A stretch of DNA of 26,475 nt from a virus. This document shows positions 2,220-26,475 of this stretch, piece by piece (positions within the stretch are counted from its first letter, which is position 1; each line of letters begins with the position of its first letter). The position numbers and the translations under genes are program-made. The notes under the pieces are model-generated. The model saw nothing but the letters and a program-made list of their open reading frames with translations, was not told the origin of the DNA and did not search any database. The DNA lies in IMG/VR virus record IMGVR_UViG_3300043435_000090, positions 1 through 26,475 of that record; one strand, 5' to 3'.

Positions 2220-3356
2220 ATGAAAATAAATTTAACACATAAAATAAACAATGATAAGTATACAGAATATATTTATGAAGCATTTGATATACAAAACAAA
2301 GAACAATCAAATGTAATTGTTGAAGCTAATTTAGAACATTTACCTAAAGAATGGAACATAGGTGTTGTTTATGGTGGTTCTGGTACAGGTAAAACTACTA
2401 TATTAAAAAACTACTTTAAAAAAGAAATGGACAAATCATATTTTGATAATTCTAAATCTTTAATCAGTAACTTTGATTGGTTAGAACCTAAAGATGCTAC
2501 ATTTTTATTATCAGCTATGGGTTTAAGTTCTGTACCAACTTGGTTAAGACCATTTAATACTTTGTCAAATGGTGAACAATACAGAGCAAATTTAGCTTAT
2601 ATTGTAGGAAGTGCATCAGAAAATGAAGTTATATTAATTGATGAATATACATCAGTAGTTGATAGAGATGTTGCTAAAGCTATGTCTAATGCTTTACAAA
2701 AGTATATTAGAAGAACTAATAAAAGAATTGTTTTAGCATCTTGCCATTTTGATATTATGGAATGGTTGCAACCTGATTGGATATATTCACCATCTAAAGG
2801 GCGTCTTGAAATAGCGCCATCACTTCGGCAACCAAAAATTGAACTTCAGATTGTTCGATGTAGATATGAAACTTGGAACTTATTCAAACAACATCATTAT
2901 TTAACTGAAGATTTAAATAAAGCTGCTAATAATTATTTAGTTTTATGGAATGAACAACCAATTTGTTTTATAGGTGTATTACCTTTTCCTGGTGTTGGTG
3001 ATGAAAAAACAAGAAGAATTAGTAGAATAGTAGTATTGCCAGATTTTCAAGGTTTAGGATTAGGTAAAAGCATTTTAAATTATATATCTTCATTATATGC
3101 AAAAGAAGAAAGTACAATGTATATTAGAACAATGTCACCAGCTTTAGGATTAGCTTTAGCAAAAGATAAAAATTGGATTGCAACTTCTTCAAATTTAAAA
3201 ATACCTGGACAGGATTCAAGTGGTAGAAAAATGATTGAAAGACCAAGTTATAGTTATAAATATATTGGTGAAATATCAAATGATGATAGTTCAATAATTA
3301 AATTTAAAAGTGAAGTTTATAAAGATGTAGCACAAAATCAAATATCAATGTTTTAA
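2220..3356 (+). CDS. ABC-type ATPase fused to a GNAT-type acyltransferase domain (COG2401-like)
   Basis: This 378-residue protein has two domains. Residues 1-195 are a compact soluble ABC ATPase: Walker A GGSGTGKTT (52-60), signature LSNGEQ (115-120), Walker B VILIDEY (137-143) with Glu142, and a switch His176. There is no membrane segment. Residues 205-350 are a GNAT domain: HHYLTEDLN (225-233), a central strand ending IGVLPF, then RISRIVVLPDFQGLGLGKSI (266-285), whose QGLGLG is the acyl-CoA pyrophosphate loop. COG2401 is known for this fusion in archaea, bacteria and phages, without a settled biochemical role. The HHYL region recalls Mom-type DNA-modifying GNATs, which is inference. It is 3 bases after the RecE-like gene and shares TAATG with the next. 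Confidence 0.85.
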   Translation: MKINLTHKINNDKYTEYIYEAFDIQNKEQSNVIVEANLEHLPKEWNIGVVYGGSGTGKTTILKNYFKKEMDKSYFDNSKSLISNFDWLEPKDATFLLSAMGLSSVPTWLRPFNTLSNGEQYRANLAYIVGSASENEVILIDEYTSVVDRDVAKAMSNALQKYIRRTNKRIVLASCHFDIMEWLQPDWIYSPSKGRLEIAPSLRQPKIELQIVRCRYETWNLFKQHHYLTEDLNKAANNYLVLWNEQPICFIGVLPFPGVGDEKTRRISRIVVLPDFQGLGLGKSILNYISSLYAKEESTMYIRTMSPALGLALAKDKNWIATSSNLKIPGQDSSGRKMIERPSYSYKYIGEISNDDSSIIKFKSEVYKDVAQNQISMF

Positions 3357-21046: not shown

Positions 21047-21652
21047 ATGGCAATAGTATATAGACATAGAAGATTAGATACTAATAAAATATTTTATATT
21101 GGTATTGGTAAAGAAGAAAAAAGAGCATATAGAAAAGATGGTAGAAATAATTATTGGAATAACATAACTAATAAAACAAATTATAATGTTGAAATAATTG
21201 CAAAAGATATAGATTGGAATACTGCTTGTGAATTAGAAATATTTTTAATTAGTGAATATGGAATAAAAAATTTATCAAATATAACTTTAGGAGGTGAAGG
21301 AAATTTAGGCAACTTACATTCTTTAGAAACAAGAAAATTAATAAGTGAAAATAATAAGGGTAAAATAAGTTGGAATACTGGATTAAAAGAAAGTAAAGAA
21401 GTTACAGAAAAAAGAAGAATAAAGTTAGTTGATTATTATAAAAAAAACATATCACATTTTAAAAACAAAGAATTTTCAATAGAGCATAAAAATAAATTAT
21501 CAATATCTAATTCAAAAAAATGCATTGATAAAATAACAAATATTGAATATTATGGTTTAAAAGAAGGATGTAAAATTTTAAATATAGATTATAATAACCA
21601 AAAATATTTGTTAAGAAAAAATAGTGACAAATCAAGATTTAAATGGTTATGA
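21047..21652 (+). CDS. GIY-YIG homing endonuclease with NUMOD-type repeats
   Basis: This 201-residue protein is a free-standing homing endonuclease. The N-terminal GIY-YIG nuclease shows VYRHRRLDTNKIFYIGIG (4-21, catalytic Tyr residues), Arg27, and a catalytic-type Glu near ACELEIFLISEYG (60-72). A NUMOD3-type region follows (SLETRKLISENNKGKISWNTG, with a related repeat about 144-160), and a C-terminal DNA-binding segment (YGLKEGCKILNIDYNNQKYL). It lies between the connector and fibre genes, 3 bases after one and overlapping the next by ATGA. Such genes spread by cutting cognate phage DNA. Confidence 0.85.
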   Translation: MAIVYRHRRLDTNKIFYIGIGKEEKRAYRKDGRNNYWNNITNKTNYNVEIIAKDIDWNTACELEIFLISEYGIKNLSNITLGGEGNLGNLHSLETRKLISENNKGKISWNTGLKESKEVTEKRRIKLVDYYKKNISHFKNKEFSIEHKNKLSISNSKKCIDKITNIEYYGLKEGCKILNIDYNNQKYLLRKNSDKSRFKWL

Positions 21653-23264: not shown

Positions 23265-24094
23265 TGGGTAGGTTTGATTTTAAAACACGAATTGGGCAAA
23301 TTTCTGCAATTATACAAAGTGGTGACCAAGATGCACAAGCATTTTTTAATAGAGTAACGGCAGCGGGTGGTGCTTTAACAAGTACAGAGCAATCGGCAAT
23401 TACTCAACTTGTAATAGATATGAAAACTACTGGTATTTGGGATAGAATGAAAGCCATTTATCCAATGGTTGGGGCAAGTGCAGCAGCTTGTTCTCAAAAC
23501 TTAAAGAGTAGTTCATTTACGGGTTCATTTAGTAGCGGTTGGACTTATACAAGTAATGGTGTTAACGGTAATGGAACATCATCATTTTTCAATACAGATT
23601 TAAATCAATCCGCTAATTTATTAGCTTCAAACAATCACATCAGTATTTATTCAAGAACAAACTTTAATGGAACTATAACACCATTTAATCCACAAGCGGA
23701 TTGTGGGGTAACAAATAATACAAGTTTCTCATTCACTCAAATTTTAACAAGATATAATGGTAATGGTGTTTTAGAAAATGGCTCACAAATACCAAGTGTA
23801 GCAGTTGCAGATTCTTTGGGTTTTTATGTTGGAACATCAACTTCAGCAACAAGTGCAAAATTATATAAAAATGGTTCTTCAATAGCTACAAGTACTACAA
23901 CACAAACAAGAGCATTATTCAATAATAATATTTATATTGGTGCAACAAATATTTCAACTACAAATTTACCTTCGGGTTCTTCAAGTAGACAATATGCTTT
24001 TGCTTCAATAGGTGATGGATTAAGCGATACACAAGCATCTAACTTTTACACGGCAGTACAAGCATTTCAAACAATTTTATCAAGAAATATTTAG
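23264..24094 (+). CDS. putative receptor-binding tail protein
   Basis: This 276-residue protein starts GRFDFKTRIGQISAIIQSGD, followed by a helical neck (to about 65) with WDRMKAIYPMVG, and then a long Ser/Thr/Asn-rich beta domain (about 85-265) with the pattern of a phage lectin-like tip: SGWTYTSNGVNGNGTSSFF, YSRTNFNGT, YKNGSSIATST. I associate this neck and beta pattern with receptor-binding proteins of Bacteroidetes phages. It is in the fibre cluster and last large virion gene before lysis. Confidence 0.6.
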   Translation: MGRFDFKTRIGQISAIIQSGDQDAQAFFNRVTAAGGALTSTEQSAITQLVIDMKTTGIWDRMKAIYPMVGASAAACSQNLKSSSFTGSFSSGWTYTSNGVNGNGTSSFFNTDLNQSANLLASNNHISIYSRTNFNGTITPFNPQADCGVTNNTSFSFTQILTRYNGNGVLENGSQIPSVAVADSLGFYVGTSTSATSAKLYKNGSSIATSTTTQTRALFNNNIYIGATNISTTNLPSGSSSRQYAFASIGDGLSDTQASNFYTAVQAFQTILSRNI

Positions 24095-24099
24095 GAATT

Positions 24100-24321
24100 A
24101 TGATAGGATATATTTTAACAACAGAACAAAAAGAAGAAATACAAGGAGTGTTTTATGCACCTTACGAGTTTTTTAATTGTGTGCAAGACATAAACGATAT
24201 TTGGTTTTTATTTTTATCAGACCAAGACAAAGAGACAATTATCAATACACAATGGGAATACTTGTTGGATTTACCACAAGGAGAATACATACCTAAACCA
24301 ATAATAATACCAAATGAGTAA
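24100..24321 (+). CDS. small hypothetical protein before the lysis genes (73 aa)
   Basis: This 73-residue acidic, aromatic-rich protein (ILTTEQKEEIQGVFYAPYEF, then DINDIWFLFLSDQDKE) starts 5 bases after the receptor-binding gene and overlaps the first membrane gene of the lysis cassette. It resembles small fibre-assembly or tail-associated proteins by location. No domain can be named. Confidence 0.55.
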   Translation: MIGYILTTEQKEEIQGVFYAPYEFFNCVQDINDIWFLFLSDQDKETIINTQWEYLLDLPQGEYIPKPIIIPNE

Positions 24322-24496
24322 AGAAACTTTAGATAAGCTATTAAACAAATGGATAAGCAGAAAGCTATTAGTTTTTTTCGTGGCTTGTGTAGGTTTGTTT
24401 TTTAGTAATATAACATCAAGCGATTGGGTAATTGTTGCGACTGCTTATATAGGCATTCAAGGTTTTACAGATATAGTTGCTAAAATAAAAACATAA
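24314..24496 (+). CDS. holin-like membrane protein (60 aa)
   Basis: This 60-residue protein has two likely membrane segments (about 18-33, LLVFFVACVGLFFSN, and 38-53, WVIVATAYIGIQGFTD) after a basic N-terminal helix. Its place directly before another small membrane protein and the lysozyme is the usual place of a holin, which would let lysozyme reach the wall. The function is inferred from size, topology and context. Confidence 0.6.
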   Translation: MSKETLDKLLNKWISRKLLVFFVACVGLFFSNITSSDWVIVATAYIGIQGFTDIVAKIKT

Positions 24497-24501
24497 TAAT
24501 A

Positions 24502-24672
24502 ATGAATAACGCACACGACATTAAACTTTTACTTGTAAATGGTTTTTTAATTAGTTTCAGTTTCTCAAATGTAGAATTAGGATTGAAGATTTTTTCTTTA
24601 GTATTAGCTATTGGATATACTGCAAGAAGATGGTGGTTAATGGAAAAAAATAAAAAAGATGATATTAGATAA
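24502..24672 (+). CDS. second small membrane protein of the lysis cassette (56 aa)
   Basis: The ATG at 24502 opens a 56-residue frame with two hydrophobic stretches (KLLLVNGFLISFSFS, about 8-22, and LGLKIFSLVLAIGYT, 26-40) and a charged end (RRWWLMEKNKKDDIR). It overlaps the lysozyme start by 14 bases. With the preceding gene it forms a pair of small membrane proteins; they could be two holin subunits or a holin and antiholin. Confidence 0.6.
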   Translation: MNNAHDIKLLLVNGFLISFSFSNVELGLKIFSLVLAIGYTARRWWLMEKNKKDDIR

Positions 24673-25105
24673 TAAAGGTTTTCTTTTTATAACTAAACAC
24701 GAAGGATTGAGGTTAAAACCATATTTATGCCCAGCTAAAATACCAACTATTGGTTATGGAAATACATACTATTCAGATGGTAAAAGAGTAACTTTATTAG
24801 ACAAAGATATTACTAAACAACAAGCATTTGATATGTTTAAAGAAATAGCTAATAGATTTGCAAAAAGAGTAGATGAATTAGTAATAACTGAATTAACACA
24901 AAATCAATTTAATGCATTAGTTTCATTTGCTTACAATGTTGGTACAGGTAATTTTGCTTCAAGTACATTATTAAAAAAGATAAATAAAAATCCAAATGAT
25001 TTAACATTAAAAGCAGAATTTTTAAGATGGAATAAAGCTGGTGGTAAAGTTATTAATGGTTTAACAAATAGAAGAAATGAAGAAGCTGATTTATATTTTA
25101 GTTAG
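24659..25105 (+). CDS. endolysin, GH24 lysozyme with an E-C-T catalytic triad
   Basis: This 148-residue protein is a T4-type muramidase that would cut the glycan strands of peptidoglycan. The active site HEGLRLKPYLCPAKIPTIGY (14-33) gives Glu15, Cys24 in place of the usual Asp20 and Thr30 (spacing 9 and 6 as in T4 E11-D20-T26); E-C-T triads are known among phage GH24 enzymes. The substrate domain shows LTQNQFNALVSFAYNVGTG (79 to 103 region) and RWNKAGG...GLTNRRNEEADLY. No signal peptide or anchor is seen, so it depends on the holin. It overlaps the spanin-like gene by 29 bases. Confidence 0.9.
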   Translation: MILDNKGFLFITKHEGLRLKPYLCPAKIPTIGYGNTYYSDGKRVTLLDKDITKQQAFDMFKEIANRFAKRVDELVITELTQNQFNALVSFAYNVGTGNFASSTLLKKINKNPNDLTLKAEFLRWNKAGGKVINGLTNRRNEEADLYFS

Positions 25106-25583
25106 TTTATTATTTATATCTTGTGGAAGTAGAAAAGTTACACAAACAAAAACTTTAGAAAAGAAAGATAGTATTTCAGTTATAAGTGTAAAAACTAATA
25201 TTGAAACAAAAGAAAATACTGAAATAAACAACAATAGTAAAATAGATAAAACAGAAGATGAATTTATAATTGAACCAATAGACAACACAAAAGAAATAGT
25301 TGTAAATGGTAAAACTTATAAAAACGTTAAAATAATACACAAAAAAACAAAAGACAATAGTTTACATACAAATCAAAAGAAAGTTGTTAAAAACGCTTTA
25401 AAACAACAAATAAAGCATATTAAGCAAGTTGTTTCTACTTCAAAAGTATTTAAAGAAAAGAAAATAGATAAAAAAGAAAGTTTAGTTATATATTTTTATT
25501 ATATATTATTAATTATATTATTATATATTATTTATAAATATAGATTTAAAATTATTAATTATATTATTAAATTATATATTTAA
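25077..25583 (+). CDS. probable unimolecular spanin (lipoprotein with C-terminal membrane segment)
   Basis: This 168-residue protein has a lipoprotein signal (KKLIYILVSLLFISCGS, Cys16 lipidated; FISC is a Bacteroidetes-type lipobox), a Lys/Thr/Glu-rich periplasmic stretch (20-135), and a C-terminal hydrophobic segment (LVIYFYYILLIILLYIIY, about 136-153) followed by another short hydrophobic tail. An outer-membrane lipid anchor plus inner-membrane helix in one chain is the layout of a u-spanin (phage T1 gp11), which fuses the membranes in the last lysis step. The overlap with the lysozyme gene fits. Alternative: simple phage lipoprotein. Confidence 0.6.
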   Translation: MKKLIYILVSLLFISCGSRKVTQTKTLEKKDSISVISVKTNIETKENTEINNNSKIDKTEDEFIIEPIDNTKEIVVNGKTYKNVKIIHKKTKDNSLHTNQKKVVKNALKQQIKHIKQVVSTSKVFKEKKIDKKESLVIYFYYILLIILLYIIYKYRFKIINYIIKLYI

Positions 25584-25589
25584 ATATTC

Positions 25590-25670
25590 TTGAATTAAAT
25601 AAGTATATATTATATTATATATATTATCTTTGAATTAAATAAATTATATATTATATTATATATATTATTA
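25590..25670 (+). repeat. tandem duplication of about 40 bp, extremely A+T-rich
   Basis: Two copies start TTGAATTAAATAA at 25590 and 25630 and continue with the same TATATATTATATTATATATA tract, differing by one inserted base. Each copy is preceded by a box: TATTCTTG before the first and TATCTTTG (25625-25632, TAnnTTTG) before the second. The stretch 25584-25782 has no gene. Confidence 0.75.
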
Positions 25671-25748
25671 AGAAATTAAAAATAAAGAAAATAAACGTTT
25701 TTAAGACACAATTTTTAGTCAAGTTATATAAGTATACTTAAAATCATT

Positions 25749-25756
25749 TATCTTTG
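25749..25756 (+). promoter_or_regulatory. TAnnTTTG promoter box before the NinG-like gene
   Basis: TATCTTTG at 25749-25756 lies 27 bases before the ATG at 25783, the same distance as the 868-875 box from its gene. An AAGTATACTT palindrome lies at 25730-25739, just upstream. A separate box at 25625-25632 lies in the repeat. No GTTAAA element precedes it. Confidence 0.55.
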
Positions 25757-25782
25757 TTTAAATCATATTTAAAATACGTTAT

Positions 25783-26181
25783 ATGGCTAAAGTAGCAAAG
25801 AAACCTTTAAGAAAAAATCTAATAAAAGAATTAGATACTATTTTCAGTCAGTATATTCGTTTAAGATATGCAAAGAATGAAATTGCAGAATGTGTAACTT
25901 GTGGTAAAAAAGACCATTGGAAAAAGATGCAAAACGGGCATTTTATGAGTAGAGCAAATTACTCAACAAGATGGGATGAAGATAACTGCCAAGTACAATG
26001 TATGGGTTGCAACGTTTTCAAGTCAGGTGAGCAGTATAAATATAGTTTATATCTTGGTAATAAGTTAGCTGAAGAATTATATATTAAGTCAAAACAAATA
26101 GTTAAATTTGCTGATGTAGAATTAATTGATATGATTGATTACTATAAACAACAGGTAAATATTCTGCATAAATTTACATAA
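25783..26181 (+). CDS. NinG/Rap-like recombination endonuclease
   Basis: This 132-residue protein matches the lambda NinG (Rap) family of junction-cutting nucleases: a basic N-terminal region (KKPLRKNLIKEL), zinc-binding C37-x2-C40 (ECVTCG), NGHFMSR with His53 (51-57), RWDEDN (63-68), QCMGCN (72-77) with Cys73/Cys76, and GEQYKYSLYL. NinG cuts branched recombination intermediates. Beside the RecE-like gene, it completes a recombination set in this genome. It has its own promoter and terminator. Length and motif order are complete. Confidence 0.85.
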   Translation: MAKVAKKPLRKNLIKELDTIFSQYIRLRYAKNEIAECVTCGKKDHWKKMQNGHFMSRANYSTRWDEDNCQVQCMGCNVFKSGEQYKYSLYLGNKLAEELYIKSKQIVKFADVELIDMIDYYKQQVNILHKFT

Positions 26182-26206
26182 TGTTTTTTAAATTGTTTTT
26201 GTCAAG

Positions 26207-26237
26207 AAGGAGTGGTTTTATAGCCACTCTTTTTTTT
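26207..26237 (+). terminator. rho-independent terminator after the NinG-like gene
   Basis: GAGTGG (26210-26215) pairs with CCACTC (26224-26229), extended outside by a wobble and two A-T pairs, with an 8-base loop, followed by eight T residues (26230-26237). Confidence 0.85.
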
Positions 26238-26245
26238 GTCTAAAA

Positions 26246-26296
26246 GTTAAAGAAATGTTAAAGTTTATTTTTGTATTAATTTAATAGTTAGATTTG
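26246..26296 (+). promoter_or_regulatory. early promoter: GTTAAAGAAATGTTAAA element plus TAGATTTG -7 box
   Basis: GTTAAAGAAATGTTAAA (26246-26262) and TAGATTTG (26289-26296) are identical, including the 26-base gap, to the promoter at 6677-6727. It drives the partial gene at 26320, 23 bases downstream, after a terminator. Confidence 0.7.
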
Positions 26297-26319
26297 TACC
26301 ATAATTAAAAACAAACATT

Positions 26320-26475
26320 ATGAAAACAGCAATGCAAGAATTATTTAGTCAATTAGAAATTGAACATCCAAATTTATTTAACACAAACACTTTAGAAGGC
26401 AGAAAGTTTATAAATGATTATTATAAATTTTTTGAATTAGAAAAGCAACAGTTAATAGATGCACACGGAAATAAA
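26320..26475 (+). CDS. partial small early protein, truncated by the window end
   Basis: The ATG at 26320 opens 52 codons (MKTAMQELFSQLEIEHPN at the start, EKQQLIDAHGNK at the end) that run off the window edge. It starts an early-type operon behind a TAnnTTTG promoter. Joined to base 1, the frame reads AAT then TAA, giving a 53-residue protein followed four bases after the stop by the ATG at 11. Helical; no family recognised beyond resemblance to small early phage proteins. Confidence 0.6.
   Translation, partial: MKTAMQELFSQLEIEHPNLFNTNTLEGRKFINDYYKFFELEKQQLIDAHGNK

Follow-up and report, generated by a model that had tools for sequence, protein, structure and literature searches.

The window analysed here is a whole virus record of 26,475 bases, possibly a fragment, with a GC content of 27.5%. 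It contains a lysis cassette in which the lysozyme gene is directly followed by an ORF that, judging by its sequence and surroundings, very probably encodes the unimolecular spanin (u-spanin) of a flavobacterial phage. The features of the cassette and of the candidate spanin are as follows.

24314-24496, plus strand: possible holin or antiholin, 60 residues with one hydrophobic segment (PHROG 4237 holin, E 0.044, a weak match)
24502-24672, plus strand: possible holin-class ORF, 56 residues including a hydrophobic stretch, located between the holin-like and lysozyme ORFs
24659-25105, plus strand: endolysin, a GH24 phage lysozyme (Pfam PF00959 Phage_lysozyme, E 1e-41)
25077-25105, plus strand: 29 nt shared by the lysozyme and spanin genes, an overlap of the same length in close loci
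25077-25583, plus strand: candidate u-spanin, 168 residues with an ATG start (PHROG 5885 match, E 1.3e-8)
25077-25124, plus strand: predicted lipoprotein signal peptide with the lipobox LFISC and the lipid-carrying Cys16 (relaxed lipobox pattern in relatives)
25122-25139, plus strand: C-G-S-R-K-V motif starting at the lipid cysteine, with basic residues at +4 and +5 (motif counts in relatives)
25272-25328, plus strand: most conserved periplasmic core, residues 66-84, EPIDNTKEIVVNGKTYKNV (invariant columns)
25482-25538, plus strand: predicted C-terminal transmembrane helix, residues 136-154 (Kyte-Doolittle, AlphaFold2 and replacement test)

The spanin ORF is AT-rich, with a GC content of 17.6%. 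The initial annotation had based its u-spanin proposal on a FISC lipobox ending at Cys16, a C-terminal hydrophobic helix and an overlap with the lysozyme gene, and all three are borne out. The N-terminus reads MKKLIYILVSLLFISC and then GSRKV, so that the cysteine of LFISC is residue 16, and a relaxed form of the lipobox is found in 90 of the 91 sequences collected; the exception, L106, starts inside the gene and is cut by the contig end. The best 17-residue Kyte-Doolittle mean, 2.81, begins at residue 136, and AlphaFold2, in a model of low overall confidence, places a helix at residues 136-154. The overlap with ORF 24659-25105 amounts to 29 nt. Cys16 is the sole cysteine of the protein, leaving none in the periplasmic part. 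Basic residues lie on both sides of the C-terminal helix, so charge does not settle its orientation. Two hydrophobic segments in a protein from a lysis cassette could also describe a holin-class or antiholin protein residing in the inner membrane only. This is extremely unlikely, given that in all sequences but L106 a lipobox cysteine closes the first segment, that 119 residues, 44 of them charged, separate the two segments, and that holin-like ORFs already precede the lysozyme.

The lysozyme has no hydrophobic N-terminal segment. Its Glu15, Cys24 and Thr30 are spaced like the E-D-T triad of the T4 type, giving an E-C-T triad as in P1 Lyz. Upstream, the 60-residue ORF, whose hydrophobic segment includes a lipobox-like FVAC, may be a holin, a short spanin partner being the alternative; sequence similar to it occurs in 27 of 84 relatives' loci. 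The 56-residue ORF has no family match, and sequence similar to it occurs in 22 of 85 loci. No clear i-spanin or Rz-Rz1-type pair was found in the cassette between 23800 and 26475, where lipoboxes were sought on both strands in ORFs of at least 30 residues and helices in plus-strand ORFs of at least 40 residues from 23900; the holin-like ORF 24314-24496 alone was also flagged. Over the rest of the window, the lipobox test was applied to ORFs of at least 60 residues. Between the spanin and a NinG-like gene, positions 25584-25780 are very AT-rich with TATATTATATTA-like repeats, identified by eye and possibly regulatory. Elsewhere in the window, 2220-3356 encodes a single chain of 378 residues with weak ATPase/ABC-like matches at its N-terminus and a GNAT acetyltransferase match at its C-terminus, and the 201-residue ORF at 21047-21652 has a NUMOD3 motif and is likely a homing endonuclease.

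How readily the two anchors could arise by chance was gauged from shuffled sequence. A lipobox combined with a C-terminal helix of 17-residue mean at least 1.6 is found in one of the 54 window ORFs of at least 60 residues, the spanin, and among the 155 ORFs of phage T1 in gp11 alone. In 120 dinucleotide shuffles one of 2037 ORFs of at least 60 residues had the same combination, as did one of 108 ORFs of at least 100 residues in a further 120. When the residues of the mature part were shuffled, 1355 of 20000 shuffles still had a hydrophobic end. Because such ends arise easily in so AT-rich a gene, the helix alone is weak evidence, and its retention in relatives is stronger evidence than its occurrence in the window gene. 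A chance ORF is ruled out by the shuffle tests together with the constant overlap: 29 nt are shared with the upstream frame in the window and in 38 of the 38 closest loci (39 of 39 in all).

Scanning viral contigs three times and genome contigs once found relatives on at least 90 further contigs, 89 of them viral and one a Bacteroidetes MAG. From one of the viral scans the best 80 of 92 matches were taken, and the family is therefore larger than the collected set, which with the window holds 91 sequences, 86 of them different, fragments included. The core motif is present in 81 of the 82 unique relatives longer than 90 residues. Homologues without the C-terminal helix would, according to the initial annotation, have refuted its proposal, and the proposal survived the search for them. 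A C-terminal 17-residue mean of at least 1.3 is found in 71 of 76 complete sequences, that is, those with a stop codon, and the other five (L061, L063, L138, L144 and L145) have a shorter W-rich stretch with means of 0.98-1.02, below this cut-off. The constant core of the helix spans approximately residues 139-153. Among 36 close sequences, all 22 replacements in the hydrophobic columns of the helix are hydrophobic, where an AT-biased mutation model predicts 74% (0.74 to the 22nd power is 0.0013); ahead of the helix, the hydrophobic columns of the mature part have 14 of 21, where 64% is predicted. Column 138, a Lys in 18 of the 36, was left out of this test. Naive dN/dS values for the 33 different close sequences are 0.20-0.62 outside the helix and 1.24 within it; the latter value counts against the spanin reading and is relieved solely by the kept hydrophobicity.

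This variability of the helix sequence, and the ease with which an AT-rich code yields hydrophobic ends, would also fit an o-spanin-like outer-membrane lipoprotein with an incidental C-terminal stretch, working with an unrecognised i-spanin encoded elsewhere; the scan for short partners covered 23800-26475 only. We consider this very unlikely. The hydrophobic end recurs across the complete relatives, even the five exceptions retaining means near 1, it is present in the homologues of phages 11b, FCL-2 and phi12:1, and its replacements stay hydrophobic throughout, while the cassette contains no clear i-spanin.

The genes surrounding the relatives tie the u-spanin candidate to wall degradation. 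In 64 of the 87 relatives' loci whose upstream sequence exceeds 450 nt, a GH24 lysozyme gene ends at most 300 nt from the spanin start, with a 29-nt overlap in 45 of these and a 26-nt overlap in 13; in L058 and L067 the GH24 lysozyme is 1.6-2.5 kb distant. At 13 further loci the spanin adjoins another wall-enzyme gene or a DUF5675 gene, bringing the total to 77 of 87. A Peptidase_M15_4 gene replaces GH24 in L069 (2539-3507) and L085 (2458-3426), ending 3 nt before the spanin. The spanins of these two loci are 82% and 81% identical to that of the window, a natural endolysin swap in which the spanin was kept. The possibility that the spanin is conserved merely through its overlap with the lysozyme gene is ruled out by the same two loci, where it stands beside a non-overlapping gene. 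An M15_3 peptidase lies 184 nt upstream in L061 and L138, with a 63-residue ORF in between, a weak GH19 match (under the curated cut-off) lies 285 nt upstream in L139, and a GH108 endolysin gene overlaps the 3' end of the spanin in L066. A DUF5675 gene directly precedes the spanin in L053, L060, L064, L132, L137, L141 and L142; it occupies the place of the endolysin and has a weak Tlde1-domain match under the cut-off. DUF5675 may be an unrecognised phage endolysin family. In the isolated phages, a GH19 gene precedes the spanin of 11b and an amidase gene that of phi12:1, and an M15 peptidase is encoded three genes upstream of the homologue in FCL-2. Retention of the spanin while the endolysin family is exchanged is the behaviour expected of an endolysin partner.

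No wall enzyme was recognised near the spanin in the remaining eight of the 87 loci (L057, L062, L065, L121, L128, L129, L130 and L134). A Pfam scan of 50 proteins, namely 44 plus-strand neighbours from seven of these loci (all but L130, a near-copy of L129), five proteins from L066 and the upstream gene of L057, found no wall enzyme among the 44 neighbours. GH24 is absent from all eight records, which may be fragments, and GH108 from seven. The 25 PHROGs families listed, out of 68, for the same 50 proteins include two endolysin families with one member each; one hit is probably the GH108 gene of L066, and the other lies in an unplaced member. The neighbours in these loci include several DNA methylases, and the gene preceding L057 is endonuclease VII-like. 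In these phages either the lysis genes do not lie together or the protein serves another purpose. Many small lipoproteins of phages belong to the superinfection-exclusion or envelope type, and the eight loci would suit a moron of this kind that sits downstream of the endolysin merely by position. Such a role is highly improbable for the family, which keeps its place beside the wall enzyme while the enzyme family changes and carries a second hydrophobic anchor at the C-terminus. Furthermore, with at most nine candidates scored in each of 395 Bacteroidota genomes, the Bacteroidetes MAG alone contains a true relative, which indicates that this is not a common prophage gene. A match in genome G272 proved on inspection to be an unrelated lipoprotein.

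In 85 unique relatives, position +2 after the lipid cysteine is G, A or S, +4 is R in 83 and +5 is K in 82, and the charge over +2 to +6 is positive in all 85. A comparison set was drawn from 1.2 Mb of two Bacteroidota genomes and comprises 46 lipoproteins that passed a strict prediction rule, one or more of them falsely. Here +4 and +5 are both basic in one protein and at least one of them is basic in 16, and the charge over +2 to +6 is positive in 19. At -3, F occurs more often than any other residue (15 of the 46), so its presence in FISC is no objection to the lipobox. The signal for surface export of Bacteroidetes lipoproteins is acidic near the cysteine, in the forms K-(D/E)2, SDDDD and SDDFE (PMC5080379). 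By its sequence, the basic G/A-S-R-K motif is opposite in charge to this signal. Since a spanin must face the periplasm, a basic start is expected, and it may act as a periplasmic retention signal.

Homologues also occur in isolated phages. By tblastn, the gene product has a match in Flavobacterium phage 11b (E 3e-4) and a weak one in the FCL-2 group (E 0.07). The PHROG 5885 profile, which 26 of 27 aligned members match, detects the gene in the records of the window (2.8e-10), 11b (8.3e-11) and FCL-2 (2.4e-72) and has no match in the T1 record. A search with L060, a diverged relative, picks out Cellulophaga phages phi12:1, phi17:1 and phi18:1 (E 1e-5 to 1e-6), and our profile A2 matches 11b (2.6e-28), phi12:1 (3e-14), phi18:1 (6e-14), FCL-2 (1.8e-6) and RAP44 (1.1e-4). 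In RAP44, gp03 combines a lipobox (FSCRTRKK) with a C-terminal helix and lies between holin and endolysin; by eye the core motif is absent from it. L061, a distant member, has a match to PHROG 9385, 'Rz-like spanin' (E 3.9e-4). Profile A2 has no match in T1, phi10:1, phi19:1 or phi18:3, and in phi13:2 it matches the signal peptide only (12.8 bits, E 0.004). Phages phi10:1, phi19:1 and phi18:3 are listed with u-spanins (PMC6139136), so the family does not take in every Bacteroidetes u-spanin. The Bacteroidetes host first proposed is upheld by the isolated Flavobacterium and Cellulophaga phages and by the MAG, and the u-spanin plan holds in the gene, in its relatives and in homologues from phages catalogued as having u-spanins, RAP44 being the weaker case.

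Relatives of the gene are already in print as u-spanins in separate pieces, and the gene is not new in kind; its novelty is lower than the initial annotation had supposed. B40-8 is a Bacteroides phage. The survey of Kongari et al. in 2018 places it under two-component spanins and gives Bacteroides phage B124-14 as spanin-less (PMC6139136), contrary to a statement elsewhere that Bacteroidetes phages use u-spanins exclusively (PMC12596118). The same survey treats 11b, FCL-2 and RAP44 as singleton u-spanins (Table 5) and phi12:1, phi17:1 and phi18:1 as one u-spanin family, grouping at 40% identity over 40% of the length (PMC6139136). From their plan and position, the SpaninDB entries for 11b, FCL-2, phi12:1 and RAP44 would be the genes named here. 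Of two Cellulophaga phages, one has an annotated unimolecular spanin and the other a potential one (PMC8776804), and the spanins of Porphyromonas and crAss-like phages receive general mentions in two further papers (PMC10367356, PMC10136315). The description of Bacteroidetes spanins as poorly known therefore needs dividing: they have been catalogued in silico (PMC6139136, PMC8776804, PMC12596118), and it stands as regards experiment, the literature searched having yielded none on a Bacteroidetes u-spanin and no lysis experiment on any member of this family. What the present analysis adds is that three u-spanin groups filed separately are joined, on profile similarity, as homologous. Further additions are the basic motif behind the lipid cysteine, the exchange of endolysin families beside a retained spanin, and a weak hint of a hairpin in the periplasmic part.

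For the periplasmic part, AlphaFold2 gave scattered strands with 27 sequences (pLDDT 61) and, with 39 (pLDDT 68), strands at 20-67 and 84-131 joined by the conserved core and followed by the helix; the pTM values of the two models were 0.26 and 0.27. A tentative and rather doubtful model can be drawn in which this part forms a long two-stranded beta-hairpin with matched arms and the EPxD...VNGKxYKN core as its turn. Zippering from the turn would join lipid and helix and drive fusion, and the basic CGSRK, the charge reverse of the acidic surface-export signal, would keep the lipid end periplasmic. The lengths of the two arms, from lipid cysteine to core and from core to helix, are 31/32 in FCL-2, 41/44 in phi12:1 and 47/55 in 11b, an outlier; among other clusters they are 47/48-49 in six, 49/48 in one and 51/52-57 in three, the median arm of 57 in the window's group depending on Lys138 (range 52-57). 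In 13 clusters (72 sequences) defined by a crude identity cut-off, with L066 dropped as its motif is missing and with statistics that ignore phylogeny, the two lengths correlate at r 0.92 (permutation 0.0005). The value is 0.73 (0.0025) without FCL-2 and 0.60 (0.04) without FCL-2 and phi12:1, where Spearman's coefficient is 0.51 (p 0.11). A coevolution test on 71 sequences, leaving out FCL-2 and L066 and with an effective number of about 20, gave group-wise mutual information below average along i+j = 148-152 (z -2.6 to -0.9), and the register drawn is unsupported by it; register 161 scored highest (z 2.3). By charge complementarity, i+j = 150 and 151 ranked third and fourth among registers 120-185. 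A search of solved structures with A2 found no real match (best E 0.12). A BFVD fold search with the low-confidence model put phage lipoproteins on top, including the phi17:1 'Lipoprotein' (E 8.6e-3); TM-scores were below 0.5 in the best 50, and these matches were rejected as fold evidence.

Observed directly in these sequences are two predicted anchors, their conservation, the position in a lysis cassette and the homology to genes of isolated phages. T1 gp11 and the published model suggest how such a protein would work, and the lipidation, the topology in the cell, the fusion step and the timing set out here are taken from them by analogy. As the last gene of the cassette, the spanin would presumably be made late, exported and lipid-modified at Cys16, its lipid lodging in the inner leaflet of the outer membrane. 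The C-terminal helix would stay in the inner membrane, so that a single chain spans the periplasm through the cell wall. After the holin has let the lysozyme out and the wall has been cut, the chains, now free, would collapse and pull the two membranes together, and the outer membrane would be fused or breached, releasing the virions. The 2018 survey notes the absence of physiological or biochemical data on the mechanism of u-spanins (PMC6139136). Many diverged members that share a constant core and anchor plan offer material for this question, and the basic post-cysteine motif provides a testable point on how a phage lipoprotein keeps its periplasmic orientation when the hosts export many lipoproteins to the surface.

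A comparison with known systems begins with the homologues: PHG11b_49 of 11b, AIX11874.1 of FCL-2, gp64 of phi12:1 and gp65 of phi18:1. They share with the window spanin the lipobox, basic residues after the lipid cysteine, the P/A-x-D...V-x-G-K/Q-x-Y-x-N core, the C-terminal helix and a neighbourhood of lysis genes. Those of 11b and FCL-2 are 38-39% identical to it, the periplasmic part is shorter in FCL-2 and phi12:1, and the wall enzyme of these isolated phages is GH19, M15 or an amidase, in contrast to GH24 in the window. PHROG 5885, which carries no function in PHROGs version 4, would on this reading be labelled u-spanin. None of the 58 u-spanins surveyed has a periplasmic cysteine (PMC6139136), and the window spanin, with no cysteine after the lipid-carrying one, is like them. 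Unlike these catalogued proteins, 26 of the 90 lipobox-bearing relatives have a later cysteine (for example L057, L061, L064 and L129, at about residues 52-79), and disulphide dimers are possible in them.

The lambda Rz/Rz1 pair does the same job in the published model with two proteins and a helical periplasmic part (PMC6139136), whereas one chain would suffice here. T1 gp11, the prototype u-spanin, is alike in its N-terminal lipoprotein signal, periplasmic part, C-terminal helix and gene position directly after the lysozyme. The periplasmic part of gp11 is reported as beta (PMC6139136), and that of the window spanin is drawn as beta strands at low confidence. The two proteins have no sequence relation detectable with PHROG 5885 or A2, and the window spanin falls outside the gp11 family as narrowly defined by 40% identity over 40% of the periplasmic part (PMC6139136). 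T1-type cassettes employ a SAR endolysin (PMC6139136), in contrast to the window lysozyme with its lack of a hydrophobic segment.
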